Shown here: positions 14,301-59,609 of the stretch, piece after piece
How positions within the stretch are numbered: the first letter of the stretch is position 1
Layout of the letters: each line of letters opens with the position of its first letter
Assembly: GCF_032854445.1 (NCBI RefSeq)
Contig: NC_088300.1
Location: 70,840,984 to 70,904,983, forward strand
Direction of reading: 5' to 3'
DNA length: 64,000 nt
From: Liolophura sinensis
Taxonomy: Eukaryota > Mollusca > Polyplacophora > Chitonida > Chitonidae
The notes under the pieces: model-generated
What the model was told of the DNA's origin: nothing
What the model saw: only the letters and a program-made list of their open reading frames with translations
Database searches by the model: none
Position numbers and translations under genes: made by a program

Positions 14301-17300
14301 GTAATCGTGTATAGCAGAAAAGGCATAACACAAATAACATCAACAGCACAATACAGAGGCAGCTTTCCCTGATTTGGCTGTAAGTAGGAGTTTGCTGAGG
14401 TTTAACCGTTTACTCAGGCTATGCCTGTAATGGGCCTGTCTTTTCCTACCAGAAGTCAGCAGTGTGATAATATTTTGTAAGCAAATTGGTTACATATATT
14501 ACAAATGCATTGCAGGAGAACGTTGTTCAGTCCAGTTTGGACCTGGGTCGACAATGCTCAAGGAAATTAAATGCCTATTAATTGCTAAAAATAATTTTAT
14601 TAGGGCATGAATGGTAGGACCGTACGCTTTTGCCAAATGTTGAATGCTATTTTTCATGTTGTTATGAGTGAGTGAGTGAGTGCTTGGGGTTTAACATCGT
14701 TCTCAACAATTTTTCAGTCATATGACGACGATCATGTTGTTATGAAAGCTGAAAACTACTCTTATTCTTCAACCTTTTCGTCCACCTCTGCAACCAATAT
14801 TTTGAAACCATCTGAGAAAACTGGGGGATGTAGAGAAATTAGTTTTATGGAGCTTACATCTTTAAGTGCATAAATTCAACTGAAAAAAGTGGATTAACTG
14901 GTGGATTAAAGGTTGAAGATTTACTGTAATGCTACACTCATTCATGATGGTAAAGAAATTTTTTTCCTGTTCTATTAAGACAGCACAAGACATTGCAGAG
15001 TACAACGTATTGGCCATGTTTCACGAGTTGGCTACCAGGGAGCACTATGTCTTACCCAAGATAGAAGAAACAACTACATCAGAGTCAGAAAAAGGTGGCC
15101 CCAAATTGACAGGTATGCTCACATCATCTTCTCCGCATAGCTCACTGACTGTGCTGGGCACATTTGCTATTGTATGGCACATTTGCTGTTGAATGGCACA
15201 TTTGCTATTGTATGGCACATTTGCTATTGTATGGCACATTTGCTGTTGAATGGCACATTTGCTATTGTATGGCACATTTGCTTTTGTATGGCACATTTGC
15301 TATTGTATGGCACATTTGCTGTTGAATGGCACATTTGCTATTGTATAGCACATTTACTATTGTATGGCACATTTGCTATTGTATGGCACATTTGCTATTG
15401 TATGGCACATTTGCTCTTGAATGGCACATTTGCTATTGTGTGGCACATTTGCTATTGTATGGCACATTTGCTATTGTATGGCACATTTGCTGTTGAATGG
15501 CACATTTGCTGTTGTATGGCACATTTGCTGTTATTACCAACAGTAAAAACTTTGGCAGATAAGTCCTTGATTAACCTTTTACATTTTTATGTCAGAAATC
15601 ACAGAAGAGGATGAAGAATCTGGTTCCCCTCAGGAAAAAAAAACAGAGACAGAAGATAGTGCAATGTGTGAATCTTCAAAGGCTACTCCTTTGGATCAGG
15701 AATATGGTGGGTTGTCCATTGGAGTCTCATTTCATTTATAGTGAAGGTCTTTTATATGCTTTTTTAACTTTTATATTTGTTTCGTTTTGGTTAAATATTG
15801 GTCATTTCACAATGGCGTCTCCTTGTTGTATGCCATTGTGAACTCTGACACCTATTTAGAGAAGCTTATTGTCTCTCTAGCTACTTTACCAGATTTATGG
15901 AGTGTCAAAGTTTACCTGATTTTTTGGACACATTTCTACATATTATCTGTAGAAAGCTTTCCACATCTATATTGGTACTAGGAGCCTATGGCACTGTGCC
16001 TTCCTATACTGCGACATTTTCACAATGGTGTCTCCCTGTGATATGCCCACCTGAGCTCCAGTTAGTTCTATATCAATAGTCATGGTGATATAATGGGTAC
16101 ATGTACAATGCTTGTTGCTGGTAACACAGTTATTGAGGGCTTGATACAAGTGAATACAGGTCTGGTCTTTGATTGAATTCCATTCAAAACATTCCATTCC
16201 ATTCTCTTCTAAATATAATCGCCTATTTTGCTAAATTTTTTTTGTCTGTTTCAGAGCCTCTGCAGGTGAATGGTGTCAAGGTCACCTTACTTCCTCTGAA
16301 CTGTCTACCAGATATGCATAAGAAGAGCAAGTACAAGAAGAAATTTGACCTGATGTACTTCTCCAATAGGTGAGGCTGTTACCAAGATCAAGACAACACA
16401 TTGTTAATGTTTATTTCACCAAGTGCTCAAACCACTATGGTGGCATTGTGGTTTAATACATTATCCACCTCGGGACACCTCGGGAAGTCGGGAGACTGGA
16501 GATCAAACCTGGGTCGGGTCATACAAAAGACTTCAAAAATTGTTTTGGCGCTCAGCTCTGACATGACAAAGCACTGAAACAGAGCTGGTTGGTCCAGTAT
16601 AATGTGATTGGAGGGCTGTCATGTCTGGTGTCTGTGGCTAGATACTAAAGTGGAGGCGAAAAGTGGAATGTAAATTCACCCTCCCAATAATTCCTCATTG
16701 TCATGCGATTCAAAATTGTTAAGTACGACTTAAAACCCAAAGCATGCATACATACATTCAAATTGCTCGGTGAACAGTTTTTTTTTCCTGAATTTTTTGA
16801 ACCTGATAAGAGTGATGGCTGAGTATAGGATTTACTGGCAGTGTAAACAGTTAGCCTATGCATTATAGAGACCTATGTGTGCCAGGTGTGACGTGAGCAA
16901 TGACTCATCTAGTTATCTTGTAGAAATACGAGACATGCATGATTTATATTTGTTGAATATGCATACAGCATTCCTCCCCCACCTGCATGTGATGATCATG
17001 GCCCCTTGTTTAGAGCCCACGTTATAAGCATTCATGGCCTTTTCATGTTGGTCAGACATGCATTTGAGACTTCATCATGGTGGTCAGACAAGCATTAGAG
17101 ACTTCATCATGGTGGTCAGACAAGCATTAGAGACTTCATCATGGTGGTCAGACAAGCATTAGAGACGTCATCATGGTGGTCAGACAAGCATTAGAGACTT
17201 CATCATGGTGGTCAGTCATGTAGTACAAGGACTGATGTACCCAAGGCAATGTCAGGAATACACGCCTCACAATGTGTCTTTGATTGTAATTGTTTCTTAT

Positions 17301-24052: not shown

Positions 24053-27000
24053 ATGAGGCGAAAAATGATTTTCCGTCTGGGTCTGACGCTGGTGATATTT
24101 GTGGGGGTGCTGCTGTATTACATGATAAAGATGGAGAAGCATGATGACAGAGTGAAAGATGACATTCACAGCAATGTGAGAGTGGCTGATACACTAGAGG
24201 AACCTAGTGTGATTGAGGACAAGAGAGAGTCCCACCTGGCTGCCATGGATACAGATGACAAATCACAGCAAGCAAACAACAACCAAGTTACCAGGTATGT
24301 TATGCAACATTTATGCTTTTTAAGCGCTACATGTAGTTTCCACTAGATGCTACACAGTACCACATTGCTTTGAGTATAAATCATCTTTCTTGTACATGAA
24401 TGTGATATGTAATCTGGTATTAAAATAATGCAGCTTGAATTTGGTTGTATTATTGTAGTTGTTTTGTAGCAGAAATCAACATTTACATACGTTTTTCTTA
24501 TAGTATAATATTTACTGTATTTCACCTAAGGTTTTGCATTTTTCTGCACATTTTGCTACATTCTAATTGATTCATCTATTCTAATTGATGCATCTACCAT
24601 TAATCTTCAACCCACTTAGCTACATTCTAATTGATTCATCTACCAATAGTCTTCAACACATTTTGCTACATTCTAATTGATGCATCTACCATTGATCTTT
24701 AACACATTTTGCTACATTTCAATTGATTCATCTATTCTAATTGATGCATCTACCATTAATCAACACATTTTCCTACATTCTAATTGATTCATCTATTCTA
24801 ATTGATGCATCTACCATTAATCTTCAACCCATTTTGCTACATTCTAATTGATTCATCTACCATTAAAGGGCTACTTACATGTCAGAGTATTTTGTGAAGT
24901 ATGATACATTTTGAATCAGAAAAACTAAGGGTTTAAATCTCATATACCCCTTGTGGGCAGGGCCTGCAGCTCTTACAAGTGTATGTTAGCCTGCCTGATC
25001 AGCCAGTGGCAATCAAGAATAACGGAGGATGTAGGGACAGTTTGGTATATTGATGTGTACATGTGAGATACAGTTGTATCATTTAGGATCTGGTAATCTA
25101 TAGTGTCTGCTGGGTGTTCACATGGCTTGACTGTTCATCAGTATCTGGTCACCTCGGCTTCCCCACCAAGTTCCTTTTGGTATGAGCGGGGGGTACGTTA
25201 CCTAAACTCCTAAAGGTCCAGCAGTTTGTAACATGTACATGACAATCTACCCATTTAATGGCTATTTGGGAATTCACCCTAAGAAGAGGAGTGGGTTTGT
25301 AGCATTCTCAGGTCAGTTGGTATGTGCCCCTCTGTCCTGTAGTGCATTTAATCAGAAGGGTTTGTGTTTGATTTGGACTGTCCCATACTGAGCGTGCGTG
25401 TGAAATCTCTGTGTAAACTGACCCACACTTAAGGGCTGAAATGGCCCTTGGACTGATGTCCTATTCCCTTCACCTAACACCAGTGTATCAGGAATACTAA
25501 CCACACTTTTGTTAATTGACTAACTTGTTGCCAGTTTTCTTCTTGGCTTTGGGCCTCTCTGAAATAATTGCTTATCTGTGTGACATGAAAACATTTAGCA
25601 GAGTATTTTATCAGGTCAGTACCAACCACATGTAGTCAAATCTAAGTGAAATCTTCTTTAGCATTATACAACAGTGCAATAAGTAAATCACTGAGTTATT
25701 TATTTGTGATGTTCATACAGTATATTAAACAGGCAGTGTCTTCAAGATTGTACTCGGCAACACGCAGTGATACAGATATGGAAAATTTCTGACAGTTGCG
25801 TACATGTAGCTTGAACTCTTCAGTTATTTTGTCAACTGAATTCTGGTCAGAACTGAATAAAGCAAAAAAAAAAAAACAAACAAAAAACAAAAAAAAAAAA
25901 ACATTTGGAATCCATTTATCCAAGTATGGCAGTAATTTATTGGATTTTTGTCATAAATATGTGTTTTTTTCTGCTGGTTACACGCTTCAGTAGTGCTTAC
26001 TTAAATTTTTTATTCTTGTCTAGACAGATGTCTTTTGTATACCTGTTCAAGATACCCAGTGACACAATAATGACACAGTGATAAAGCTGTAAATTCCATT
26101 TAAAAGCCATCTATCAAACTGACTGAAATTAAGTACATTAATATGTATGAGAGGTATAACTTCATTGAATACCCTCTGGCCAGTTTACAACTGCAGAAAA
26201 GTCTAAATTTAACTGGACAATTGCTAGGTTGCTTTTTATGTAAGATTTTAATGTCTTCCTCATAAACACTGATGGTGAAGTTGCTGTAATCTGTAAGACC
26301 TGTTCTGTGAGGTTATTTTTGTTTTGCCATCAGTTTGCTCAGTCAGTATTTATTCTGACACGTTGAACACACATCCCCGAGTACATACATGTATATACAT
26401 GTACAGTGTGTATGGGAAGGTTTTCTGGTTATGGTTATAACTTATAGCGTTAATTTGTAGAGTTTTTCACAGACACATTTTAAATCTGCTCCAAATGATA
26501 GGCATTTCATTTCGTAACTTGTTGGCCAAGAGTAGGGTGCTTGATTATCCAGATTTGATTATGTAAAGTGTTACAAAGATGGCTGCCTGTTAACATGACG
26601 TCCATTATGTGGTTTATTGTGAAATGCAAAGGTGTTTGGTCTGAAACTGAGGTCAAAGGTCAAAGCGAGCTTGGTTCACTCATCCGAACATCAGTGTCAC
26701 AAAAACTGAAACACTGTTCTAAATATGAATAACAGACCCAGCATTCCAACATTCTGAAAACAAGCAAAAGTTAAGCGATGGACATTTTCCAGTTAACATA
26801 CATTGGATAATATTAATTACAAATGTTTATATTAAAAATACTTGATGAATTATTTTCGCAGAGAAACCTTCCATAATGATATACAATAGCAGAAGATGCC
26901 TGTTGATAAAACATTTGTGATTAAAAACATTTCAGTTCAGTTTTAAAGTAAGCTTAATGGAGTGATTGTTTGTGGATTCAAGGTTTTCAAGACTGTTCAA

Positions 27001-30000
27001 GTCTTTGAATCCCTCATCTCTTCACCTTCTCAGAGTACATTAACAGAGGAAATCAATTTTATGATGCAAAATAACCAAAAAGTTATGCCAAAGGGAAACA
27101 TTTCATTTTATGGCCATTTGGATTTTTGAACAAATTCTGTAGAAGAGACACAAGAACATAAGTGAAATATTCTTGAGTACAGCGTAAAACACCAATCAAA
27201 TAAGTAAATAAATAAATCTTCAATTGTCGAAGGTAGCTCAGTCAATTTACAATAAAACTGTTCTTCCCCAACACCTTCACAGAGAAAACAATATATAGCA
27301 CAGATGTATTACAGAGTTCCATCAAAAAATATATTCAGTATTTTTATGTGTAAAATAAGATAAAGCATCATATGGTTGGAAAGGTGAATTTACATACATT
27401 CAAACATACAAAAAGTAACAAAACAACCAATAGTGCTCTAAGGCTGACAGCCCTTGATGACAGTGATACATGTAGGATATATATTTTAGGAATAGGATTT
27501 ATAATAAACAAAGATCGAAACAAGAGTTACACAGGTGTTGCTACTTTTCCAGCAACATATTTCGACATTAGCTGTCTTTTTGCCACCTTTGAAGCATGTG
27601 ATCTTCATGACCTATGTTCGGTAAAAAGGTGTAAATATATGTATATATGTGTAGACTTCGTGCCCATGTACACCAAATAGACAGGTGAAAAAGGCTTACC
27701 TGTCAGTATACACAGTTACACACACACACTGAGAAATCCAGGTAAACTTCACCTGTGCATGATACAGGTGAAGTTATTCTCGCGCTCTGTGTACTATATT
27801 TACATCTTTATGACTTTTTATGACTAAAATTTTGTTGGAATATTGAAAGACTTTTAAAAGATGTGGAAGTGCTGTACATGTAATTATTACATGCAGCACT
27901 GGGTAACCTTGTAGGTTAAATTTTTGAATTTAGGGTTGAACATTAGAAACCTTTTCAAGTGTTTACTATCAGTTAAGAATTTATTAGCCAGCTTTCCAGT
28001 GAAATGTGGATTTAGTGGGCTGGGAATTTTGTCTGTAGTGGTTTTCCTTTCAAACTTGGTTTACCTACAAAAAAAATGTTTGTCATCTATTATCCAATTA
28101 AGCATTCTTTGGAAGAGAGGGCGGGATAAACGGGGCTGTGCAAAATGCCCTGCTTCATTTTGTGAAAATAATGTTGTTAAATCTGGAAAACTAGGATGAT
28201 TAATTCTTGGCATGTTTACATCAGGCTTTAGTTTAAGCTAAAAAAAAAATATGTGCAGGAATGATAAAACACTTATTATACCTGGTGGTGGTGGTTGTTG
28301 AGTGGGGGGGGGGGGCGTCTGATTTCATAATTACTGTCGTACTTTGTGCGGTAGTGCTTTTCTATGTATTCAGATTCCGCTCATGGAATTCTTCCTAAAG
28401 TACTGAAACTCTTTCCCTGAAACTTAGAATACATCTTCCCTATAATCTAAACATACATGAGTTGAATTATGATCAGGTAATTACTTTCATTATTACTCCT
28501 GTTGAGATACTTTAGGTACTCTTTTGATTTACTGCGAATGGCCCCTTGAAACCATATCTGTGAAGCCAAACTAAGCAACATGATGTCCTGCCATTTCCTT
28601 GAAGGTTTTCTTAGTTTTCTGGGAGATGGAAGGAGGAGGGGAGGGGGTGTTTTCAGACAACTGAATTCTAGTTCCAAGATGCACATGAATATGTAGCCTT
28701 ACAAAACGTGATTCAAATTAAAGTATTTATTTTTTATTTTTTTTTTTTGTATTATCGCAAGCCCATATGAATTGTTGTCATCCTGATAGCTGCTTGTCAT
28801 CGAGGTCTTACTTTTGTAGCTGGGGGCCTCCGTGGCTCATTTGGTTAGCGTACTAGCGCAGCGTAATGACCCTGGAGCCTCTCACCAATGCAGTCACTGC
28901 GAGTTCAAGTCCAGCTCATGCTGGCTACGTGGGAAGGTCTGGCAGTAACTTGCGGACGGTTGTGGGTTTCCCCTGGGCTCTGCCCGGTTTCCTCCCACCA
29001 TAATGCTGATCACCGTCGTATAAGTGAAATATTCTTATGTACGGCATGAAACACTGAATGAAAAAATAAATAAATACTTTTGTAGCTGACAAATATGAGA
29101 TTAATTCACAACTGAAGCTGCTAGTCTTGACACAGCCGATCCTTTGCTTGTATTACCCCTGGGTGTATTTGCTCTGGACACACATTTAGCAAAGCACCTT
29201 ACATGTGTGCACCTGTAAATCTACAGTGTAATTAAGAGTGTTATTATGAATCAGTATGTAGTTTGGGTAATGGGCAATTTTATAGTTCATGTGTATAAAT
29301 GTGTTGTGAATGTACCCTTTAGTAAATCGACCAGGTGATTGATACATGTGTATAAAGGCCTGAACTGGATTACTTCATAGAATTTTGCAGTTTATGTCAT
29401 TTTTACATATTTGATATTAATTTGTAACAAGATTATTCTAACAGACTGGCTTTCTGGTTACCCTACTTTACAAACCTCTTCAAGAAGAATATGTTTCAGA
29501 TTGTATTATGAACTTCATATAGAAAATTTAATATATTTGAAATCATGCACAGTATGCAATCATACTTACTGTTGTTATGACAACATAAAGCCTTTTGTAG
29601 GTTGATTCACCAGACCTCACTGTGTGTAAATCATTATTATCATCAACTCTCCCCTTTGATCAACCTTTGCGGATTTGCAAGGTGTCCAAACTTCAAATAA
29701 AGTAAATGCAAATTTGAAAATTTGAACAAAGTTTTACACTATGCTATTAAATTAATGATTCTGTAACTTTATAGTCATTTTCTTTTAGGATAAGATTGAG
29801 TTCATTTAGATTTGACTTAAGACAGCCAGGATTTTGTGACGTGTGGACTGGTATTGGCAATGTTATGAAGACTAGAAAGTTAAGACATTATAAAACTGGA
29901 ACTGTTAGATTCTCATCTCAATCTGTTAGAATAATCTTGTTACAAATTAATATCAAATATGTAAAAATGACATAAACTGCAAAATTCTATGAAGTGATCC

Positions 30001-33000
30001 AGCTCAGGCCTTTATACACTATTTCCAAACGTTCAGGGTCATCAATGATTTACTTGAATCATTCACATATGTACTTTTCCTGAGAATAAAGTCTATACAT
30101 TTACCCCCTCTAATGTTTTCAGTGAGTGGTCAGGGGAGATAATGCACCTCTCAGTTGTGGCCTGTGGAGCCCCAAGAGTAGAAGAGACAATGGTACTGCT
30201 CAAGTCAGCAATTCTTCTGTCCAAGAGAAAACTAGTGTTCCATGTGTTTGCTGAGGATGAACTCCATCAGTCCTTCAAGGACCAGGTAGATATTTTCTCA
30301 TCTCGGTTATTTTGATAAAAGCTAACAGTTTCACAATGATGATGAATTTTTTTTTGCTGTTTTACATCGCAGTAAAATGCTGTGTAAACCTCCAAACTTC
30401 ATACAACATACATGTGTTTGAGTCATGATAATCTGTCACTCCACAGCTATCTTTCTGGCCAGAGGAGTTCCAGAAAAAGTTCAGGTTCAACATTTACTCC
30501 ATCACCTTCCCTGCCGGTCATGTGTCAGAGTGGAAGAGGCTGTTCAAACCCTGTGCTTCCCAGAGACTCTTTATACCAGTGAGTATTGTGTTACTTTCCT
30601 TAGGCTTACAGTCTACCATCCTCAGCTGAAACACCCTGCAAATCCTTGTACGGGGGATCTCGAGACCGCTAATCCACATTGACTAATGGAAACGAACCTA
30701 CTAACACCTAGCTAAAAATGGCTGTTGTTGTTTTATATCAGAAGTTGGTTTGACTCATAAAAGTGGGTTGCCAATGCTGGTTGGGTATAATTTTTTAGCA
30801 TGAGTTGGGAATTCTGAGGATGGTCTCTGCGTGGAGGTCTGAGACTGCTGGGCAAGCACTACCATACTCTGCAGCGTTGTGAAGCAGATGGGCTTCACTG
30901 TTTCTGTCTGTAGTGGTAACTGATACATAAAATATCTTTTCTGTGAAGAATACACTTGGAAGACTTCATATCCGATATATGCACAGAGCTGTTTGACCCT
31001 GAATTTCTCACAAACAATAACGTCCGCCTCTCTATGAATTTATTTAATTTAGTGTTCAGTGATCAACGTCTTATTTCATGGGTAATCAGGAATATTAATG
31101 AAGATACCTCTCCCAATGAAAATTTGTCGTCTTTCGCGAAGGCTTTCAGCTTGTACAGAGTGCTCATTGGCTAACAGTGATTGTGTCAGTCACCACTTGT
31201 ACCAGATAAACAGGTGTTTTTCAGCAGAACCTGAAACCATAAGGTTATGGGGGTCTGTCGTAGAGTAGTATTGTATGAGCACCTCCTGATTGGTCCACTG
31301 TATAATTTGACGTACTCTGAATGTAATGTTGTCTGCAATGATGCAATGCTTCTTTCATTTGTTGATGTTGAACTAATGTAATTTCAGTGAAAAACGTTGA
31401 AACTCTCTTTTGATTTATGTATGTGTTCTAAAATGTTCTTTTCAGACAGTGTGAAATGTATTCCAAAGCAAACACTGCATGTGATTGTTCAATTTACTAC
31501 AGTAGTGAGCTTGTATCTGTATGTACCATGTTATCATTTCTGTATGGACCAGGCCGTTGTGATTGTCTGCAGCTGAACAGGTGAATTTCAGCCAGCTGTT
31601 TAGGGATGAGTTTGCCTTAGCAAGACAAGTTCTTGGAACACACTGAGTATTGCCAGTATATTTATGGGTTTGGCTATTAGTGGCATAGAGTATTACAAAA
31701 GATACAGTTACAGTCTGGTTTTAACTATGTTGTGAAGATAGCTGTTTCTGTATGGTAAATAACACGCTTGAACCATGATGTTCACTCGTTATGCTTCATT
31801 TTCTTTTTAACATGATGAATAACATGGTCACATTGTTTCTATTCTGATGAACACACTGTAACATCTTTGTTGTTTTTTCAGGTATTACTCAAAGATGTTG
31901 ACTCCATTCTCTACGTCGACATGGACATTTTGTTTCTATTCTGATGAACTTTGTAAACACACTGTAACATCTTTGTTGTTTTTTCAGGTATTACTCAAAG
32001 ATGTTGACTCCATTCTCTACGTCAACACGGACATTTTGTTTCTATTCTGATGAACTTTGTAAACACACTGTAACATCTTTGTTGTTTTTTCAGGTATTAC
32101 TCAAAGATGTTGACTCCATTCTCTACGTCGACACGGACATTTTGTTTCTGCGTCCAGTGGATGATGTTTGGGACCACTTCCACAAGTTTAATTCTTCTCA
32201 GTTTGCGGCTTTAGCTCCAGAGCATGAAGATGAACAGACCAGCTGGTACAAAAGATTTGCACGCCACCCATACTATGGCCATTTAGGTTTGTCTGGACGT
32301 GTTGAATTGCTTTTGTAAATTCTTGTGAAAACAAGTTGTGCAGATATGCACTGAACTAGGTACAAATTGTCTGTTTACAGCACATGAATGTGCCTGTTGC
32401 TGTATAACTTAAGAATTCTTTATTAGTCTTTAGTTACATCAAATAAGGATATAAACATATTCATCAAAGTTAAGTACTTTATTTTGATGTCACTGCTCAC
32501 ATACTAGAATTTTATTTAATTCATTTTTGCTCTTTGATCTGATAAGTTAGGAAATCTGCACAAGTATCCTACGGATGGAGGTGGTGGGTTAGCCTGCTTT
32601 CCTCCCACCATAATGTTGGCAGATCAAACACCAATCAAATAAATAAATAAATAAATGTCTGCACCAAGAAAGACATAATGCACCCTGTTACACAAGATCT
32701 GCTCTGCCTAGTGTTCCTAGCTACATGTACATTTACAGCTACACCAAGACTAGAAATATGTGTAGGCTCAAACATACTGAGTAATGAAAGCTTGGAATTA
32801 GAAGACTATAACATACTTTGCACAGGAGAAGTTGATTGAATATCTGGTTCACGTAGCCGAAAGTTAGTATACATGAAATCTAAATTGTGAAGAAGTGTGC
32901 GTTGACACAACCATGTGATCAAGCCTGTTTTAAGCCGAATTTAAGCTAGTTCAGTAATAGCTACCTGAACTGATACCATCAAATGGGAACTCGGATATTT

Positions 33001-36000
33001 GATCCAATCACTGTTCGAACGGTACAGGCAAACTATCTAATGAACTGAAATTGTATTAAAGCCATGTCGTTGATCGGGGTTAAATACCACTGCTTAGTAA
33101 TAAGGGAAAGTGTCATAACAGCTTAAAGCCACTTTTCACATTTATACCAGCTTAACTCTGCTTGTGCAAAAATGCTGATAGAAAAGCACATTTCAAGGGA
33201 GACTACTCTAAAGAGCAAAATTAAGTTAATGTCCTTTAAAATATTATAGAATGTCTTGGGTCTAAGGTATCACTGGTACATGGAAACTATTGTGAAAAGT
33301 GGATGGGATTTCCTGAAGGTTACCCAACAGGTACATGCAGCCTATATGGTATCACGGATATACCATTTGGGCTTTGGCTAAGCTTGGGTTGTTTTGTTGG
33401 CTTTCTTGATGAAATTTCCACCTGCCTTTGGTGGTAGGAACATTAAAGCTCTTAATCCTTTGCAGGTAGATTTCTTTCATTTCACAGGACGCAAATTCTA
33501 GAAAACTGCGTTATCATCTTAAAGATGAAGAGATATCAATGATGTAAGGTCACTGTTAACAAAGGCATAAAGGTAATACAATATCAAAGACTACAAAGAC
33601 GAAAGGAGTAGGGATGACCTCAGTTAAGGTTTTATTCTAACATTCCATGTAAAATTCTTAAAAAGAATTAACATTTGTGCATCCTCCCTTCTCCCCTCAG
33701 CACAATGGCTTAAGCAAAATTAGGTAAAAAAAAAAAGGGAACTGCAGTGATATAATATTGCAATCTATCTGACGTCATTGGTCTAGTAATTTTCAAAATG
33801 CTGTGTTGTCATCACATTTAATAAGCAATCTCAGGCAAGGGAAGGTCCTATTTTAGGGTGAAGTTGGTTTCCATTCTCACCTGACGTCTATTTCTAGGTG
33901 TGAACTCGGGTGTAATGTTAATGAACCTGACCCGAATGAGGAAATTTGATTGGCTGACACATGTCCTCAAGTATTACCAGGAATACAAGATGAAGATTAC
34001 GTGGGGAGACCAGGATGTAATCAATATCATCTTTCATTACTTCCCAGGTAGGAGCAGAAAAGACACAGATAACTTTCTCAGTTACATGCCTTTACATTGC
34101 GAACAAGTAGTTTCGTATCAGATAACTTTGATTACCCGTCATGATTCCTCAAGTTTTATTTGTGTTTATTGTGAAGCCCTGATAGTTAAAATTGTGTTAG
34201 TTACCCTAATTCTTCAACCTTTTCATCCCCCTCAGTGAGCAATATATTGAAACATTCTCAGAGAACTATGAGGTGTAGTGAAATAATTTGAACATTTGTA
34301 GGAAGCCTTCATCTTTAGTAACATAAACAAAACATTTTTGGTGTTATTTTCATAATTATTGTATGGATAATTTCACTGAAAAAAGGGCTTCAGTTAGTGA
34401 AAAGTTTGAAGATTTACATCATATAAAAGCTATGGAACTTTGGTAACAGTAAACAATGCTCACAAAGTTGTTTGTATAGTCTAGTGCTCATACCAGACCG
34501 TATGTCACACATCAAATAGCTGGTTAGTAACTGAACAAAGATCAAGTAGTGGTTTTCTCAAGACACTAGGATTTTCTCCAACTGTGAAACTAACCACTAG
34601 CTGGAGGGGAACATTCTAGAGAAGAATCTGGAAAATAAATGTCAGATTTTGACTTTTGAAATCAAAAATGGCTCTAAGTAAAGAAGTAAATACCTTCATT
34701 GTGGTGTTGCAGGCATGTATGTGTATGTATTTGTGTGTGTATCTCTGTTCCCAGAACGGCTTTATGTGTATGGTTGTGATTGGAACTACCGGCCTGACCA
34801 TTGTATGTACATGAGCACCTGTAAACTGGCAGAGCAGGCTGGTATCTCAGTTCTCCATGGTAACCGTGGTGTGCTACATAACGACAAACAGCCCACATTT
34901 AAGGCCATCTACGATGCATTCAGTCAGGTATGCACAAATGTAGCTCTGAGATCAGTTAGCCATGTTCCCAGCTTAGCTTCCACATTAACCGCTCTGAACT
35001 GTTGCATTCACTAGCCTGGAATGAGGTTGTGTCATCTGTGCTGTCTCCCAAGCACCAACGCTGTACGCCACAAAAAGAGGTATCCCATGATCTTAAAGTG
35101 ATTCTGAATTGATATCACCTGATTTTGTGGGAATAATAAAGGCCATAACATCACAAATAACACAAATGTAACTGACACACCTACTCAGACAGCATCAGAA
35201 CTTCGCAAGCCGCCATTTTTCAAATCAATTGCTAGGGTGGACTCAGCTGGTCTTCCCAAAATTAAAATCATATTTTTCACAATATAGTGGATTATAGATC
35301 ATTTCTGTTCATTATCAACACACAAATTAAAGTTACAACTACCAAACAATTTGTCAATCTCCCTTCAGATGGTGTACACCTCATTGGTTTCAGTAAAATC
35401 ATTCCACGAGTTCATCTCTTTTCAGACAATGTTTGGCTTGCTGCCGATGTAACTGATGCATTTGTGTTAATTGTGATGTTATAGTCTTTACTATTCACAA
35501 ATAGCTCGGTGATATGAAGTAAGAATTACTGATGGATTACAAGAAACATGTTTTTGTTGCATACAGCTTTGACATGTTGAGGACTGCACACCCGGAAAGA
35601 CCAAGTTCCAGGTTAGTGAGTGGAAGGCTACAGATCTGTATTTCTGAAAGCTAATCTGGGAAGAATGAAACAGATCTCAGCTGTAGCACAAATGTGGCAT
35701 CATTTCATGTTACTGAAGTTGGCTAGACTTAAAACTGGCTAGACTTTTTTTTTCTCTTTGAGAAACATTGATGTTGGCTATGCATTACTTTTCCTGTATC
35801 CAGCAAACCTTGACATGTACATCTTCTTTTTGTTTTTGAAAAGCATCACTTCGGGGACTCTCTGCAGCACAGCCTTCTGGTGAAGATGAAACAGAATCTC
35901 GGTCGCACGCAGGTCACAAACTGTGGCCAAGTGGCCGATATCTTTATAAAGCAGTTTGAACAGCAGGCGATAGAGTGGCAGAAGAGACGAGATGAACAAT

Positions 36001-36035
36001 GGAACTTGGGGCAAGACACTGTCAAGCAGGTGTAA
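24053..36035 (+). CDS. GXYLT1: Glucoside xylosyltransferase (GT8), GXYLT1/2 type
   Basis: Seven coding exons join in phase to 414 aa: 24053-24294, 30123-30285, 30447-30578, 32094-32286, 33898-34047, 34755-34927, 35844-36035. The protein is a type II membrane enzyme: short basic start (MRRK), membrane anchor at about residues 6-24, a stem, then the GT8 domain beginning MHLSVVACG. Key motifs: [10 protein letters not shown], metal-binding YVDTD (190-194), [22 protein letters not shown] (279-283), WNYRPDHC (303-310) and LHGNRG (327-332). The human paralogues have about 440 aa and share these blocks almost word for word. The enzyme adds xylose to O-glucose on EGF repeats of Notch in the ER/Golgi; the fly homologue is shams. 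A single invertebrate gene probably stands for both vertebrate paralogues. The exon 4 acceptor is triplicated (see 31882-32093). Confidence 0.95.
24536..24868 (+). repeat. Irregular tandem repeat in GXYLT intron 1
   Basis: Repeated words TTGCTACATTCTAATTGATT, CATCTATTCTAATTGATG, CATCTACCATTAATC and TTCAACACATTT recur about six times with small losses, starting 240 bases after exon 1. Confidence 0.88.
25120..25560 (+). repeat. Possible decayed tRNA-derived SINE
   Basis: CTCAGGTCAGTTGGTATGTG resembles an A box, and GTGTTTGATTTGG about 50 bases on may be a worn B box; a 'wording' typical of SINE bodies follows. Very diverged and uncertain. Confidence 0.25.
27159..27217 (+). repeat. SINE tail fragment (AATAAAT-tail family)
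   Basis: AGTGAAATATTCTTGAGTAC, then AGCGTAAAACACCAATCAAA and a TAAGTAAATAAATAAAT tail. Confidence 0.85.
27745..27775. repeat. 12-bp perfect inverted repeat, 7-base spacer
   Basis: AACTTCACCTGT (27745-27756) and ACAGGTGAAGTT (27764-27775). A second, shorter pair (GACAGGT/ACCTGTC) lies about 50-70 bases upstream. In GXYLT intron 1. Confidence 0.85.
28809..29088 (+). mobile_element. Full-length tRNA-derived SINE with 14-bp target-site duplication
   Basis: Perfect direct repeats TACTTTTGTAGCTG flank the element (28809-28822 and 29075-29088). Inside: a tRNA-like head with A box TGGCTCATTTGGTTAGCG and B box GAGTTCAAGTCC, a conserved body (GTGGGAAGGTCTGGCAGTAA, CTCTGCCCGGTTTCCTCCCA), then GTGAAATATTCTTATGTACG and an AAATAAATAAAT tail. 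The intact duplication suggests a rather recent L1-type retrotransposition into GXYLT intron 1. Best reference copy for the family in this window. Confidence 0.93.
29348..30019. mobile_element. 98-bp inverted repeat around a 476-bp loop (foldback or non-autonomous DNA element?)
   Basis: Arm 29348-29445 is the reverse complement of arm 29922-30019 at 96 of 98 positions by hand alignment; the outer ends read GTGTATAAAGGCCTGA and the inner ends CTAACAGA. The 476-base loop holds only a short unsupported ORF. No clear target-site duplication was found beyond the ends. The right arm ends 103 bases before GXYLT exon 2. Confidence 0.9.
31882..32093 (+). repeat. 106-bp tandem copies of the GXYLT exon 4 acceptor and exon start
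   Basis: The block GTTGTTTTTTCAG plus the first ~60 bases of exon 4 occurs with exon starts at 31882, 31988 and 32094, an exact 106-bp period. Only the third continues into the full exon. The first two run from the exon's TTGTTTCT into intron sequence ATTCTGATGA and hit TGA in frame (31942-31944, 32048-32050). The copies differ in the codons for the DTD motif (DMD and NTD in copies 1 and 2), so they are not plain assembly duplicates. Confidence 0.95.
32571..32656 (+). repeat. SINE 3' fragment (AATAAAT-tail family)
   Basis: CTTTCCTCCCACCATAATGT, then CAAACACCAATCAAATAAAT and further AAAT units. The GTGAAATATTCTTGAG block is deleted. In GXYLT intron 4. Confidence 0.75.
34207..34420 (+). repeat. 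Dispersed repeat family III, copy 3
   Basis: TTCTTCAACCTTTTCATCC, AATATATTGAAACATTCTCA, GAACTATGAGGTGTAG, CTTCATCTTTAGTAACATAA, TTTCACTGAAAAAAGGGCTT and GAAGATTTACAT align in order with 139-331 and 14761-14925. In GXYLT intron 5. Confidence 0.75.
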
Positions 36036-36495
36036 GGAAATCTCACTAGCTTTTTTGGCAAAAAGCTCATGCCACGGAAGTATCTCCAGTTGTTGTAGCA
36101 ACCTGCGCTGTTCTTGTTAGCAATCCTTAATTGTCAGTTGAGCCAGGCAGTACAGGTGATAATTAAATGTCACGGATTTCAGCCTATATATTCCCAATTC
36201 AGTCAAGGTCTTGATGTACATACAGGAAAATGCAGCAAAATTTTGAGAGATTTGTGTTGTTGATGGAAACGTTGATTAAGGAAAACATTTGGCCAGATCA
36301 TATCACGTTAATCTCAGAAAGTCTTCCTGTGGATTTGTTTACAGAATAATACTAAATGTTGTAGAAGTATTATATTAAAAATGTTACTGAAAGTGAGTGC
36401 CTGTAGGTACATGTAAATGAGCAAAATGTTGTAAGTATGTACAATATGTAACATGCTAACTGTGGGCTCTGCTTGATCTCCCCACCAATAAACAT
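36036..36495 (+). terminator. GXYLT 3' UTR with a candidate poly(A) signal
   Basis: After the TAA at 36033-36035 the first AATAAA is at 36487-36492. Others occur further on (for example near 37420), so the true end is not fixed. Confidence 0.4.
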
Positions 36496-38760
36496 TATGA
36501 GAATCTCAACAAGTGATATAACCTCGAGTACTGAATCAATCAGATGAAAAACTTAAAGCTAAGGCTTGAGATCAGATCAGATCGAACCTACCACCTTCCG
36601 ACTGCAAAATATAATGACTGGCCAGAGCAGATATGTTTATGTACTGAAGGCTGAGTAGTGATACCAGGATCTTAAGAAACTTTGGTTCTTTCAACACAGT
36701 TTCTACACAGAGATGTGCTTCTGGGTTTGTTCTAAGTTAATACTGAGTGAGTTTTTGCCTGTGCATGTATTGTTTACTGGTGAAATTCAAATGCAGAAAC
36801 ACCCTCTTGAGAGCGTTGTCGTTGACATGTACACAGTCACAATGGTTATATCAGAACAGATCTCTTGAAGTTTACATTTTGTTCAAAGATGTGTTGCTTC
36901 AGTCTATGAGAAATGAAGTGCAAGTTTATTTTACCTGTCATAGCCCATGATGGGTAATATACAAGTAAGATCTCTATACCAAAGGAATCCAGATTCTGAC
37001 CTGGGTCAAAGTCTAGTAGCTCAAAAATACTGGAGAAACCAATATGTGGCAGTATAACAAAGAAAGCAAAAATCGAAAATTTACTTGAGCTAAGGCCTTG
37101 TGTGAAATGCTAATGATTACAATTGGTGTGAAGTTGTGCTTGTGACTGTATGTAGCCTTTGGTAATGATCATTACAGAATGTCTTGCAAAGCAAAAGAAA
37201 CAGAGGCAGTTTTTAATATCTGCAGATTGAAGCATGTTTGTATGAAATACCATGGTACATTGAAAAGATCTGTGTCGCAAAAATATTTAACAGAAAAAAT
37301 TGATCGATAGTACATATTGCTGATTTATGGCCCTAATATAAAGTGACCAGTCAGTAATATTTTATAATGAAGAGTATTTATTATATTGTAGCTCAAAATC
37401 AAAATATTTATTATTGTGTAATAAATATTCACCAAAGGTGCAATATTTGTGGGAAATTGTTATTACATGCAGTCTTCTTTACAGTTATTTTATTCATTAT
37501 CTGCTGTTAATTTCTAAGTGAAATTTATTCATTGATTGTCTTGGGTTAGATATGTTTCTGCTTTGTAATTTGACTTATTTGTGTTTTATTGAGACGACTA
37601 ATTACTAAGTAACTAAAGCAAGGCAGTTCTATAAGATGCTGCTAAACCTAATCATCATTCAGCAGAATATATCAAAATCTCAAATGGACTGAAATGGTAA
37701 TATGTTGTTGAAAAATGCTACATGTATTTTTTGGTAGAATTTTCACCTGGTGTAGTTTTATATACTGCTGATCTGACTATAATGATGCAATCATTATTCG
37801 GGATTTAGACTTTTAGGTTCTAGGGCTGAAAACTGGTGCGAGATCATTCCCGCTTTGAAGGCAATGCTGATTTGGTCCTGTATTAATGTGTTGGTTGGTT
37901 TACCATGGTTAACTATTCCATTCCCATTTCTTGATCATTATTTCATACTTGGTTAACTATGGCCTGTGTCAGGCCATAGAGTAGCCCTCTGCGGTTTGAT
38001 AAAGTCCTGAAAATGTGAGGTTTTGATATTCATATTGTGATACTGATATAGGCGTAAACTGAATGTGGTGTGTACTTATATTTGTTTGTAATATCATTGC
38101 AAACTTATTGTTTATACATGTATATACCCCTTGGCCAGAAAAAGAGAAGGAAATAGTCAGTACTTGTCTTCCTGTATCATTACAGGTTGAAGTAAATAGG
38201 CTTATTGATGTACATAGATATATAGTGCTTTTTGTGCAGTTGGATAAATGTAAATTTTTTGGAAGAATTTACATCATTTGAAATTTACAAAACTCGCTTA
38301 TATGATTTCTTTTGCTTGTATTTGCATTGTGCTGTCTGTTACTTTGCCAATGAATGGACATGTTAAGGTCCCAGTATATTAACGAATCCATTATAGTACT
38401 ATCTTGCAGGTACAATGTACTTACATGTCTACCTTAAAAACTGCTTACCTGCATATCAGTTTCTTTTTATTTAATGTGTCCTCATTACCCAGATGTGTTC
38501 TTGTGAAAAGAAAGCTTTGACTGCGTCAATAGGTAATACCACAAAATCTTCCAGGAACAGGCATCTCTTCAGTTCTAAGTTTCTATAGCAGGGGTACTTA
38601 TATGTATTAAATGAAAGAGCAAACCTATTGAAATGAGATGTACTTTTGTAAACTAAGTTTTGTTGCTAGATATGCAGCAATTGGGTTCTTTTGAACATTT
38701 CAAAGATGCATTTACCAAGCTGCACTTCAGTCAGTAGCTTATTTTCTTGGAGGTTGCTGT
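36496..38760. other. 3' flank of the GXYLT gene, nothing recognised
   Basis: Very AT-rich sequence with scattered TACATGTA-like words. It may be a long 3' UTR or intergenic. No coding exon was recognised. Confidence 0.5.
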
Positions 38761-38766
38761 CATATG

Positions 38767-38828
38767 TGTGAAATATTCTTGAGTACAGCATAAAACACCA
38801 TTGAAAAAGAAAATATAAATAAGTAAAT
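38767..38828 (+). repeat. SINE tail fragment (AATAAAT-tail family)
   Basis: GTGAAATATTCTTGAGTACA, GCATAAAACACCATTG and a degenerate AAATATAAATAAGTAAAT tail. Confidence 0.75.
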
Positions 38829-38829
38829 A

Positions 38830-41800
38830 TTTTCTCAGACTGGCAACATTTTGCATATTAGCACGTTTCACCATTTGAGTCTATTAAAGGTATTCTTGTT
38901 GTGTTATGCGTCTGTTCAATACAAGTACAGTGCTGAGTATGAATTCATGGAAGTTCTGAAGGTTGTAATTCAGGAAGCTAAAGCAAATGATATTTCAGTT
39001 ATATTTCTTAGAAAAATTGTTCCAGGAAGTCATGTTGTCACTGTTAATATGTGTATCCCATTTTACTTAATTACTCGACCAATTTCAAATAACTTTTGTA
39101 CGGCATATGGTGAGCCCTGGTGTGTTCGGTTGTTGTAGCTAGCTGTCTTCAGGTTTCAGTAATTTAAAGCCTAACATAAGTCTGTATGTCCAAAAAATAA
39201 CTATAAAGTAATAATGCGTTTTAATTCTCATCCTTCAGGAAAGATGAGCTAGTGAATCAAATCCATTACAATTAGGCATGTTATCATGTATACTGTTTGT
39301 ATGTACATTTAAGTGTATGGTAACTTCTAATTTTTCTGTGCATGCTAAAATTATGATATAGTCCACTAGCCTTTACTCAGTGATGTTCAAGTTTGTATTT
39401 AATTATTAAATCTTGGGACCAGACTTTCAACTTTAAACAAAGCAGATTTGCACATTTTTTTCATTTGTTCATGTAAATTCCATGGAAACTGACCAATATT
39501 TATATGGTATATAGCATTGTGTTAATAGTGTCACATATTTAGAATATGAATTACAGACTCACTGTCTCGTAAGAGATATATTACTTGCGATCAACTTGAT
39601 AGATGGGTAACCCTAATATTTCTCGAACGTTGCACATGGTTTTGTGCTGTACATTTTCATAAATTAATGAAAATAGAACTAGGTGTATGAATATAGGTTG
39701 CATTTCTGTTGGATAAATTTGCGTGTATGTTGTTTGAGATAGAAATAATTACTTGATGGTGTAAACTGCAGTGATTTGGATTTGGAGATTTACCTACGTG
39801 TAGAATCAGCCATACATACATTTAGATGTATGTGTTCACTTTCAGCATCAGACTAGATCAGCACGTGCTTATCTGGACTACATATCAGATGCTAGATTCC
39901 TCAGGTGTACCCTTAGGAGAAAACTGTTCAATCTAAGGTTTGTTTGAAGGATTTCTTTTTTTTTATATTGTTGCCAGGGCAACGGACTTATTGTAGGACC
40001 TTCGCAGTCTATGTATCGAATCAGTATTGGTTTTACTGTTAACTTCTGCTATTTAAGGCAACTGCTACCTGAGTTATTAATCAAGTACATATATATAAAA
40101 TGTCATTGTAACTTACGGTTAACCATGTGTCAATATTGGCAGTACAGAGATATCTAAGGTTTAACTTGAATGTGCACAAGATACATTTGAGTGTTTTATA
40201 GTGACTCTTTTCTGCTGACATTTTTCATTTTATTGTCCTCCCGCTATATAATACAGGCGATATGAGAGTAGGTATGTCTGTCGGAAGGCCTGTCTGTAAT
40301 CATTTTTTGTGAACACATCTCTCACATTTTTGTCTGATTTTTGTGAAACTTTTTGGTCACCATATACAGATACCCTTATGCTGTTGGATTAGTATTTCAC
40401 ATGAGTTATTTTCAACATTATCACCCTTTCAAGATATAATGTGGATTTTGAGACCGTGTTAATGTAAAACTTCCCAGCGTTCTCATTGGATTTCCATGAA
40501 AATTTGAAAATGTTTTGAGGACAATGTGTGTTTTTGGTGCTCAAATTCTCATAGTCTTAAACTTTGGTGAATGAAAGCTCCCTGGCAGACGATCACATGA
40601 TTTACTGGTGCAGGACCGGGGCATAAGCCATCTTTTCCTGAATGCTGTTGAAGGAGATGTACTTTAGCTTAGCTAATATATTTTGCTAATCACATGATCT
40701 ACTCTTTAGTCACTAATGTTTTATTTTACTACTTATGGTATGTGTTAATCGTAGATTTTTCTTGCTAACATTTTACACCTGAGTCTGCCAAAGTCATGTG
40801 TATTGGTGTTGCATCTAGTAATAACAGTTTAGCAAGCTGTGTTCGTAAAGACATGTTGCTGTAGGCTAAATCTGTTGTTCTTTAACATGGACAATGTGAT
40901 GTGCTATTTGCAGATGTCCACCATGACACTGTAATATTATCATCATAGACATTGCAAAGTATCACCATTGTATATGTGTTTTTTATCCAGTTGTCCAATA
41001 TGATGTTTGGTCCAAACAATCAGTGAAGTGATCAGATTGTTTCAGATGTCCAAACCAGTGCACTTCTTATGGTATTCTAATCACATTCAAAACTTAAGTT
41101 TTGTACACGAAGTCGTATTCATGTTATTTCAGCTGCACATGTCTTAGATGCTTTATCAATTCAAATTTGGAACATTCAAGTATGTACATTTTACCATATT
41201 TCTAATATGACTTTCTATTGGCTTCTTAGATTGGTCACAAACGCGAAAGGCATCAATGTCCTTGTTCCTTAAAGTCTATTTACGGTCTCTCTTCACAATA
41301 CATGTTCTTACAAAAGCTTTTGGTTTGAATGTTGTAAATGTTATGGTAGTACTAAGATGGCTTCATAGAGCAGGGTTAGCCTGCTCGTGTTCTGATACTA
41401 ACCAGTAGAACTTGATAATCGTAGGCCTATTTATTGCTGAAGAAGCTGGAATATACATCATATCTTTTGTAGATAACCATTGTTGGTCATATTTAGATGC
41501 CACTGGAAGATAGAATAGACAGTGCATAGTGTACATTGTTGTTATAAATGAGCTGTATCCAAAGAGTAGTTTATATGTTTATATTTTCAGTGCTATTTAT
41601 AATCGTGCGCAGTAAACAAGATTCTTCAGTTTAAGTCAGAAGAGTGTATCTGTGTTAATTTATGTTTATTCTTCTGTGTTTTGCTACGACAGAAGATCAG
41701 GAGAGTTGAAAAGTGTTCCCTTCTGGCTTCAGAAGTCACTGCTTGACTTCAGGCATTCTGGATCTAGGGTCTCATGCGTCCTAACGGAATCTAACTGCTT

Positions 41801-42850
41801 AACCCGGGGCTGTTGGTGGTATAAGCATACGCGTTTGTCACAACTGTCTTCCCGTTATCACTGCTGACTGCTTCCCCTTGTTACATGTCACCAGTTTTAT
41901 TATAGCTTTATTATCGACTTGGAAAGTCCCTCCATTATTTACGAGTGGTATTCGAATGTCGGACGTGACGCTTAGATTTGTAATGATTTCTCAAGATTCA
42001 AAAACAACTAAACTTCACGAGCAAAAACAGACTCCGCATACAAGGTCTGTGGAGAAAGCTGGACAGGAACCCAGGGTAACTCTGACCATTTTTGGTAGGA
42101 TCGCAAACATGTTTTGTATTGAAAAACCACATTTGAATTCATTCCATCCACCTGACTTGAGTGTTGCGGTTACATTCATACTTGGATGCACATTTGTCAC
42201 ATTCTCCTAGCACATACGGTCTGTTCGATTGATGACTGACTTTATCATGAATGGTTTTGTTATCGAAGCGAATAGAACCTAAATATTAATTAGAAATACA
42301 AAACGTGTGCTAAGAACACCACTCTATAGCTTCCGATGAAAATGCTTAAAACTGGTGTTCATGAAAAATGGTGTTAAAGTACATGTCGACACCTGTAATG
42401 ACAGATTGTTCACTTACACGAAAACAATATTTCGGAAAGGTGAGATCCGTTCAAACTGTGATAATTTTTAAGCAAGAATTCGTCATGCACGAATGACGAA
42501 AAACATTATCAAATCTTGCCAGATCCAAAGTTCCAAATAGTTTTGATGAATTGGATCAATAAGATACGGCAGATGTTACAACCATTGATTTGTGGTGAAC
42601 GCTTTTCGTCTTGAAGTTTATACCTAACTGAATAATAACCAGTTGTGTATTCTCCATAACTTGTAAAACATGGGATCTCAACGTCAATATTTCTCAAACG
42701 AAAGTTGTTGTATATAGAAGGGGTGGTAGGCTAGGTGCTTCAGAAATATGGGTAATAGGAAACTAGACTCTGGAGGTAGTGAGTTATTACAAATTAACTT
42801 TTACTTCCAAACGTAGTCCCCATAGTTCAACTTTCATTCTTGTTGATTCT
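38830..42850. other. Intergenic, no gene recognised
   Basis: Mostly AT-rich. About 40240-40600 reads like an old dispersed repeat (GTATGTCTGTCGGAAGGCCTG, then TTTTTGTGAAACTTTTTGG, then GATTTCCATGAAAATTTGAA), wording I associate with molluscan interspersed repeats but cannot classify. ORFs of 71 and 110 codons at 41652-42210 match no family I know. Confidence 0.45.
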
Positions 42851-43650
42851 ACCAAACGTGCACTGACAGAGATACTTCGCACTATGTGATACCTTGGTGA
42901 TATGCCCTTGAATACCTTTTTTTAAACTGTTCGATGCCAGAGTAAAACCAATACTTATGTATGCTTCGGAGGTGTGGGGGTTCCAAAGATGCAAGCAACT
43001 AGAACAGGCACAGTACATGGCTTGTAAACGTTGGGTCAGAACGGGGCAAAGTATGCCCCGCGAATGCCATGGCCCTTGGGGAGTGTGGTCGGTACCCATT
43101 GTACTGCTCCACTGCAATCCGCCGTGACAAGTACTGGCTTAAGATAATAAACATGCCTGAATCGATATACGCACGAAAAGCATACTCCATCCTATTACAT
43201 CTTGATATGATGGGAAAACATACATGGGCCATAGATATAAAACAGCTGCTCTCCAAGCTAGGATTTGGTTTTGTTTGGGTAAACCAAGGTGTAATCAACC
43301 AACAAGTGTTTCTGTCAGTGATATCGACAATTTCCAACAAGAGTGGAATGCCACTCTCTCTACAATCTAGCAGCAGATACGATCTGTATAGGGTGAATAA
43401 AACCGTATTTTGTGAAGTGTCATCCTTGAGCCTTGTTAGAAATCCCCAAGTACAGATGCGCTTTGGCAAGAATGAGAGTTGGAACTACTGGCCTACACGT
43501 CGATATTGGTAGATTTACAAATACCCCACGTTAAGATAGAAAATGTTCTGTGTGCAGTCGAAACATTGATGAAGACCAGTTGCAATTCATTTTTCTGTGC
43601 CCAGAGTACAAGGACTCCCGTCGTAAGCACTGACCAGTGAATATTTGTCG
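42851..43650 (+). pseudogene. Non-LTR retrotransposon (LINE) remnant, C-terminal part of the ORF2-type protein
   Basis: Shifted frames together give the familiar region after the reverse-transcriptase core: LGDMPLN, then LFDARVKPILMYASEVWGFQ (about 42929-42988), then GECGRYPLYCSTAIRRDKYW (from 43081), WVNQGVINQQ, and a terminal zinc-knuckle-like CSVC...FIFLCPEYKDSRR (43544-43627). At least one stop and two frameshifts (near 42925 and 43040) interrupt it. No intact upstream reverse transcriptase was seen, so it is a 5'-truncated dead copy. Confidence 0.8.
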
Positions 43651-43989
43651 AACAGGACATCACATCGTTTTGTTCTACTCATGACAAGTGCGTCCTTAAG
43701 CCTGGTTAATAGAGTGACTAAGTTCTATCTATGTCTAGAGCGGCGCACTAAAATCCAAGAGTCGCTTAGTGTCAACAGTATGTAAACTATTGTCGCAAAG
43801 ATTAACGGTGTACAGATATTTTGAGTTACACCACCAGCCTATGTACTTCCACAAATGCATGTATAGGGGTCTATGGCCTGAATATTTTTAATAATCGAAT
43901 TTATATATGTAACTAAACAAATCTTCCGTCACAGTTCTGCATGCCATAGTTGCCAGAATAATTTAGGATTATCTTGGAGATGATCTTTT

Positions 43990-44052
43990 GTGAGGCGTCA
44001 TGCGACTGAAAAGTTGTTAAGTATGACGTTGAACCCCAAACACTCACTCACT
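43990..44052 (+). repeat. SINE tail fragment (TCACTCAC-tail family)
   Basis: GCGTCATGCGACTGAAAAGT, TGTTAAGTATGACGTTGAAC and CCCAAACACTCACTCACTC. Confidence 0.8.
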
Positions 44053-44500
44053 CCTTTGGTGAGATAACACGTGACTGATATATGCGAACAACGCATATTC
44101 CTCACGTCAGTATATCATAAGCCGTTTTTCTGCCAAAATAAAATATTTAAATTTCAATCAAATGTTTGCTGGAAATTGTTACTGGTTAGAATACACTGGC
44201 GATTCACAACTGAGCCGCCAATGAATTTCCGTTCATCTTGTGGATAAGCCGAAAGTATCGTTAGCAGGATTGCGCTGTCTTATAGCTCAGCAGTTTAAAC
44301 TCTGGACCGAAGTGAAATTTTCCTCTGTTGAAAGGTTGCTGTCATGGAAAAGAGAGTTTAACCCAGTTGTGAAGACACACCTTGAATACAACATACTCAT
44401 TTGTATGAACTCAGTTCAGGCTTAGCAAAAACGCGTAGCCATACACAGACTTTGAATTAGACACCACACATCAGGCGCACATCAGAATGTCCTCAGCTTC

Positions 44501-45600
44501 GCGCCATGCCCAGAGTATCCTCATCACCACGCCAGACCCAGAGTATCCTCATCACCATGCCAGACCCAGAGTATCCTCATCATCACGCCATGCCCAGAGT
44601 ACCCTCATCATCACGCCATTCCCAGAGTCTCCTCATCACCACGCCATGCCCAGGGTCTCCTCATTATCACACCAGACGCCTTGTATCTTCACTACGGCGC
44701 CAGACCCAGAATCTCCTCATCACAACGCTAGACTCGGAGTATCCTCATCACCACACTACGCCTAGAGTATCCTCATCACCACGCCATGCCCAGAGTCTCC
44801 TCATCATCACGGCAGGTCGAGAGTCTCCTCATCATCACGGCAGGTTCAGAGTCTCCTCATCACTGCGCCATGCCCAGAGTGTCACCATCAACAAGACATG
44901 CCCAGAGTCTCCTCATCATCACTTCAGGCCCAGAGTCTCGTCATCGCCATACCATGCCCAGGGTCTCCTCATTATCACACCAGACCCCTTGTATCTTCAC
45001 TACGGCGCCAGACCCAGAATCTCCTCATCACAACGCTAGACTCGGAGTATCCTCATCACCACACTACGCCCAGTGTATCCTCGTCACCACGCCATGCCCA
45101 GAGTCTCCTCATCAACAAGACATGCCCAGAGTCTCCTCATCATCACGGCAGGTTCAGAGTCTCCTCATCACTGCGCCATGCCCAGAGTGTCACCATCAAC
45201 AAGACATGCCCAGAGTCTCCTCATCATCACTTCAGGCCCGGAGTCTCGTCATCGCCATACCATGCCCGGACTCTCCTCGTCACCACGCCATGCCCAGAGT
45301 ATCCTTATCATCACGGCAGGTCCAGAGTCTCCTCATCACCACGGCAGGTTCAGAGTCTCCTCATCACCACACCGTGCCCAGAGTATCCTCATCACCACCC
45401 CAGACCCCTTGTATCCTCCTCATCATACCAGGCCCAGAGTATCCTCTTCTCCACATCATGCCCTGAGTATCTTCATCACCACTCTAGGCCCCAAAGTATC
45501 CTCATCACCACACCAGACCCCTTGTATCCTCATCACCACACCAATCCCCGTGTATCCTCATCATCACGGCAGGCCCAGAGTATTTCGTCACCACTCCAAT
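44501..45600 (+). repeat. 28-bp minisatellite with 308-bp higher-order period
   Basis: About 39 copies of a 28-base unit (CCCAGAGTATCCTCATCACC then ACGCCATG, with variants). Variant blocks recur exactly 308 bases (11 units) apart: 44648 with 44956, and 44843 with 45151. With 28 = 1 mod 3 and no stop on the forward strand, all three forward frames stay open for up to about 250 codons and encode the same 28-residue cycle (PRVSSSPR, QSLLITT, PEYPHHH). The reverse strand has a TGA in each cycle. I treat the ORFs as a by-product of the repeat. Confidence 0.95.
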
Positions 45601-45726
45601 ACAGAACTAAGTCTTTCAGCTTTACCGACAACGGCAGAAGCAGTTAGTGTCTACTATGTCCGTTATATCACATATAAGGCAGGCGTTTTCACAACGGGAT
45701 TTATGCCATGACTGTGGTGTTGATAC

Positions 45727-49940: not shown

Positions 49941-49949
49941 GTTTTGCAG

Positions 49950-57120: not shown

Positions 57121-57129
57121 TTTGGAGCG

Positions 57130-59600: not shown

Positions 59601-59609
59601 CCGCCATGT

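Follow-up and report, generated by a model that had tools for sequence, protein, structure and literature searches.

A GT8 glycosyltransferase gene and its exons

The + strand of the window, by which we mean the whole stretch of 64,000 nucleotides analysed here, carries a gene of the GT8 glycosyltransferase family, whose exons we number as in the first-pass annotation. Exon 3 (30447..30578, + strand) ends in CCA and is followed by the donor GTGAGT at 30579; its start is a putative one, set by the open frame together with an AG at 30445-30446. Exon 4 (32094..32286, + strand; 193 bp) contains the DTD codons and ends at the donor TAG|GTTTGT, at 32287. The intron between 30578 and 32094 is 1,515 bp long. 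The next exon starts at 33898 (33898..34038, + strand), 34038 being the limit of the frame check and not the end of the exon. Donors were scored roughly, with human donor base frequencies. On this scale the donor of exon 3, CCA|GTGAGT, scores 3.64 (98.2nd percentile among 4,220 GTs), and the donor of exon 4 is weak, at -0.58.

When the preceding exon (taken from 30452 in this test), exon 4 as headed by the third copy of its acceptor, and the next exon are joined, one frame only is open. The resulting product of 153 residues matches the Pfam family PF01501 (Glyco_transf_8) with an E-value of 6.6e-12. Six PDB sequences were found at E up to 0.01, LARGE1 chains being the best and XXYLT1 the sixth, and in the alignment the DTD encoded by exon 4 falls opposite that of LARGE1. 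These matches point to a GT8 domain with a DxD motif. The gene had been called GXYLT in the first-pass annotation. Its membership of the GT8 family stands, given PF01501 and the aligned DTD, whereas the name GXYLT is one that we assume from the human protein, and a xylosyltransferase activity of the GXYLT type is putative.

The X-read frames 26402-41401 and 26403-41402 matched 0 and 1 Pfam families, respectively, the one being GT8 just below the cut-off. GT8 came up again, below the cut-off, with the X-read frame 27003-36998, and the X-read frame 26403-41402 had 0 PDB matches at E up to 0.1. The joined exons alone passed the Pfam cut-off for GT8. The Pfam scans spanned parts of the window and hence provide a partial gene map. 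A search of Rfam at the gathering threshold gave 0 matches, and a tRNA search gave 0 genes.

The repeated acceptor of exon 4

The 3' end of the intron and the beginning of exon 4 are present in three tandem copies. Tandem Repeats Finder reports an array at 31850-32149 with a period of 106, 2.8 copies, 98% matches, and a score of 586, and the three exon starts (31882, 31988, and 32094) are spaced by exactly 106 bp, in line with the triplication of the acceptor region described in the first-pass annotation. The exact 106-bp period given there applies to the spacing of the acceptors and to units 2 and 3, but not to the first unit, which lacks 9 bp. Indeed, the word TTGTTTCT occurs at 31833, 31930, 32036, and 32142, and thereby delimits units of 97, 106, and 106 bp.

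Repeat unit 1 (31833..31929, + strand) consists of the intron tail without these 9 bp, the decoy acceptor AG of copy 1 (31880..31881, + strand), and 48 bases of the 56-base exon piece, in which ACG>ATG changes DTD to DMD. Repeat unit 2 (31930..32035, + strand) opens with the 8 bases that close the exon piece of copy 1 and continues with the intron tail, the decoy acceptor AG of copy 2 (31986..31987, + strand), and an exon piece in which GAC>AAC changes DTD to NTD. Repeat unit 3 (32036..32141, + strand) is made of the intron tail, the authentic acceptor AG of copy 3 (32092..32093, + strand), and the first bases of the complete exon. The terminal TTGTTTCT, at 32142..32149 (+ strand), lies in the authentic exon and constitutes the right-hand microhomology, its left-hand partner being at 31833-31840. 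The unit of the array spans the exon-intron boundary, every copy contains a splice signal, and one of the copies is the authentic junction.

Differences between the copies are few. Units 2 and 3 disagree at a single one of their 106 positions, unit 1 shows 1 substitution and the 9-bp gap, which falls in the intronic part, and every column from -32 to +36 is identical around the three acceptors. Within 60 bases upstream of each exon start there is no AG besides the acceptor's own (3 of 3 copies). A branch-point-like word, CTGAT, begins 38 bases upstream of exon start 1 and 47 bases upstream of starts 2 and 3. The exon-derived piece of each copy, previously put at about 60 bases, amounts to 56, the final 8 of which are TTGTTTCT and are also present in the intron. 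Past these 56 bases copy 3 runs on into more exon, whereas copies 1 and 2 go back to intron, so the third copy alone heads the complete exon (32094-32286), as had been proposed.

The first-pass annotation is also right in that splicing to copy 1 or 2 leads to an in-frame TGA 20 codons after the acceptor, at 31942..31944 via acceptor 1 and at 32048-32050 via acceptor 2 (+ strand). The exon measures 405 bp from acceptor 1, 299 bp from acceptor 2, and 193 bp from acceptor 3, and the TGA lies 342 (copy 1) or 236 (copy 2) bases upstream of the exon end. The DTD codons, which were thought to be kept ahead of these stops, are found in copy 3 only: a C>T substitution at +41 makes DMD of them in copy 1, and a G>A substitution at +37 makes NTD in copy 2. 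Both inter-copy substitutions are CpG transitions and singletons, and both are in decoys. The probability that the two fall at CpG is 0.003 under uniform site hits, though CpGs mutate faster. One CpG transition per decoy is what would be expected of unconstrained copies.

The two breakpoints share the exact 8-bp TTGTTTCT, which agrees with the earlier observation of an 8-base word in both the exon and the upstream intron at the copy breakpoint. Among random position pairs 60-150 bp apart, drawn away from the listed tandem arrays, an 8-bp run was present at 76 of 300,000. The word itself is not rare in the window, as it is also found at four + strand sites outside the array. Because a breakpoint match of 8 bp is this infrequent, a duplication assisted by microhomology and followed by slippage or unequal exchange, already suggested in the first-pass annotation, is a plausible and well-grounded origin. 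The intronic and the exonic TTGTTTCT would have undergone recombination or slippage once, giving two copies, and another slippage or unequal exchange would have given three. The upstream two copies would now be intron sequence, free to drift, and would have received one CpG transition apiece. The origin looks like an ordinary repeat-forming accident, and the array looks like a neutral repeat, not a switch.

Probably a passively carried repeat, and the alternatives

We consider it likely that the array is a "mirage", in which an intron-exon boundary has recently been duplicated in tandem in the manner of a minisatellite, and that it is passively carried in the GXYLT-like gene. The spliceosome would use mainly copy 3, the sole acceptor that heads the complete 193-bp exon with an open frame. 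Any leak to copy 1 or 2 would give a stop-containing message. Messages with a stop far upstream of the exon end should be cleared by nonsense-mediated decay, of which such leaked messages would be a target. The enzyme would be made from copy 3 alone, selection on its function would need enough use of this copy, and no regulatory role would be required. As the three acceptors are locally equal, the choice between them must rest on context, and the shortest and complete exon (193 bp, vs 299 and 405 bp) would be the natural product of exon definition. Against this explanation, the identity from -32 to +36 gives no local reason to prefer copy 3, and exon definition is less certain because the donor of the authentic exon is weak. 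The published support for undisturbed splicing at such arrays is also thin, and the animal may not be a lancelet. In classic minigene work with duplicated sites, proximity and exon context reportedly both matter, and some of these studies are said to have seen the upstream site used.

Boundary minisatellites named "mirages" are described in the amphioxus globin, Adh, and TnC genes (PMC3087553, PMC3902484) and in PGBD5 (PMC3902484). In the globin gene BflGb6, the duplicated segment runs from the 3' end of the intron into the 5' part of the exon, and the two haplotypes carry 6 and 3 units (PMC3087553). As in our array, the copies are of a 3' boundary and include the acceptor, besides one authentic section, which in BflGb6 is found in the transcript and here would be. 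However, the BflGb6 units are 150-160 bp long and 81-100% identical, while ours are 97 or 106 bp long and nearly identical, and the gene is a different one. According to the excerpts of this work, Adh3 data and globin RT-PCR suggest that regular splicing is undisturbed, the copies could serve as cryptic sites, and the cDNA coverage of BflGb6 is partial (PMC3087553). The lancelet PGBD5 gene has repeats of 3 x 108 bp and 2 x 60 bp at splice sites, whose sequence, according to the authors, was confirmed by resequencing, which they take to suggest that the repeats are real (PMC3902484). Like our locus, it has a segment of about 108 bp in triplicate at an exon boundary, but its repeats adjoin splice sites or run over them (mostly donors) and are imperfect, unlike the array described here. 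The same authors cite the Adh and TnC cases as lacking aberrant mRNAs and infer accurate splicing by analogy, and a JGI transcript model takes some of the PGBD5 repeats as exon (PMC3902484). The available part of PMC2206037 mentions tandem repeats in passing only. A text search of the literature, a weak probe, gave no boundary minisatellite in a mollusc among the titles of the matches listed.

The local equality of decoy and authentic acceptors, together with decoy stops that both lie far enough from the exon end for decay, would suit regulated unproductive splicing, where the choice between copy 1 or 2 and copy 3 tunes the enzyme via message decay. We find this very unlikely, since the decoys look young and drifting (2 substitutions, both CpG), with no sign of constraint beyond their recency, and since the amphioxus cases, in the parts of their descriptions available, are said to splice regularly. 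Nor does anything in the analysis point to the switch between full enzyme and truncated or decayed message that had been put forward in the first-pass annotation. That the array results from an assembly error, or from two collapsed haplotypes, we regard as very unlikely. There are precedents in the excerpted sources: one amphioxus array was apparently misassembled in a draft genome (PMC3087553), and the copy numbers of the PGBD5 arrays differ between two genome versions (2 or 7 repeats for one, 3 or 6 for the other; PMC3902484). Yet the copies of our array have their own differences, namely the 9-bp indel and two separate substitutions, which duplicating one read path would not give. For this reason, assembly error was rejected as first choice.

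Copies 1 and 2 had also been interpreted as zero-length recursive splice points, at which the intron would be removed stepwise. AG stands directly before GT in each copy, a likeness to the ratchet points of Drosophila (PMC8605326, in part), and CAG|GTATTA is at the 87.5th percentile of the GTs in the window. However, AG|GTATTA resembles a ratchet point only as long as the donor is taken to include the intronic CAG. Once the preceding exon is joined to the copy, the donor actually regenerated is CCA|GTATTA, which scores -6.19 (39.8th percentile of the 4,220 GTs, with the human weights), against 3.64 for the donor with which the preceding exon really ends. The regenerated donor is not a strong one, and recursive splicing was rejected on this score. 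Most Drosophila ratchet points tend toward a strong regenerated donor and occur in long introns, according to the available text of PMC8605326, whereas here the donor is poor and the intron is just 1,515 bp. Moreover, the GT simply belongs to the codon with which the exon opens (GTA, Val), and the authentic copy has it as well. Since some weak regenerated donors are used in certain alleles and reporters in the same excerpts (PMC8605326), the weak donor makes recursive splicing less probable without proving its absence; we consider it highly improbable.

Boundary duplications can also give rise to introns. In the potato RdRp gene, a duplication across a 3' boundary became a new intron through the activation of a cryptic GTAAG (PMC4974935, in part). 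As at our locus, this duplication crossed the boundary and copied the branch site, pyrimidine tract, and acceptor, but the potato gene gained an intron with a GTAAG donor. Here, the best internal donor of the decoys besides the acceptor's own GT scores -3.72 (64.6th percentile), and the frame is closed. By score, the duplicated segment holds no usable new donor, and we rejected an intron gain in progress.

A further reading, which we put forward as a long shot, is that the copy number of the array varies among individuals and sets the level of productive message, which would make the minisatellite an inherited dial on the glycosyltransferase. In this reading, boundary minisatellites would also be widespread in metazoans, should the host be something other than a lancelet. 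If this were true, each added upstream acceptor would divert some transcripts to decay. The locus also constitutes a natural duplicate-acceptor experiment, with three acceptors that are identical from -32 to +36 and differ only in context, so that RNA from the host animal would reveal how distance and exon context choose among equal sites. Duplications of this kind have been proposed as raw material from which introns are gained, and the locus adds a case whose 8-bp microhomology is still readable. Finally, a host outside the lancelets would widen the range of hosts of the published mirages.

Other repeats in the window

The window contains 14 tandem arrays with a period of 14 or more, which cover 4,930 bp (7.7% of its length). 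To obtain this count from 32 Tandem Repeats Finder rows, periods <14 were dropped, overlapping rows were combined manually, and the array at exon 4 was counted from 31833 onwards; two other steps relied on lists that had been merged a little differently and comprised 12 and 13 arrays. Because the arrays make up 7.7% of the window, a few overlaps between arrays and junctions are expected by chance, an expectation that uses an estimate of a few dozen junctions for the three genes seen. As minisatellites are found at or close to several junctions of the window, the one at GXYLT calls for no special cause.

On the - strand, an array at 3843-3986 has 3 copies of a 47-bp unit, each with CAAAG|GTAAGG. 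Its first copy is probably the donor of an exon at about 4195-3981 (- strand), which we take to be CWF19L1-like. The exon itself has no Pfam match, and CwfJ_C_1 is found on the same strand at about 970-710. This array is probably a second boundary duplication in the window, of the donor type, as the repeated AAG|GTAAGG suggests a triplicated donor.

Two arrays on the + strand lie close to exons matching DUF4471, which are presumably DNAAF3-like. One (12851-13031; 65 bp, 2.8 copies) begins 12 bp past the probable donor of such an exon at 12839, and contains two donor-like GTGGTAAGT that score 5.5, vs 4.4 for the donor at 12839. The other (15157-15529; 19 bp, about 20 copies) begins 44 bp past CAG|GTATGC at 15113, which is probably the donor of a further exon matching DUF4471. 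A 41-bp array with 18 copies, at 10442-11168, has 9 donor-like GTs with scores >3 on the - strand, mostly CCAGTAAGT. Many of its units end in TTCTTCAG-like words, none of which passed the pyrimidine cut for an acceptor. The gene in this region is apparently on the + strand, where DUF4471 and, below the threshold, DUF4470 are matched, and the splice-like words of the 41-bp array may be due to chance.

At 59623-60111, a 44-bp array has 8 donor-like GTs with scores >3 on the - strand, mostly AAGGTGGGT (6.5); no Pfam match was found on the - strand of 54001-63999. The array at 44502-45598 (+ strand; 28 bp, 39 copies) shows a higher-order period of 308 bp over part of its length, three frames of the + strand stay open over long distances in it, and no Pfam match was found on the + strand of 40001-49999.

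The window also contains a 24-base SINE-like 3' end, CACCAATCAAATAAATAAATAAAT, at 4940, 22879, 27190, and 32629 on the + strand and at 52535 on the - strand. It may resemble mollusc sequences, whereas the tandem arrays are reminiscent of a lancelet. Text searches for the element and pattern scans of prokaryotic and viral contigs yielded 0 hits, a result of little weight given the content of these collections. The five sites allow for up to 2 mismatches, with 0.00 expected by chance, and a ATATTCTTGAGTAC-type stretch lies upstream of CACCAATCAAATAAATAAATAAAT at 4 of the 5.
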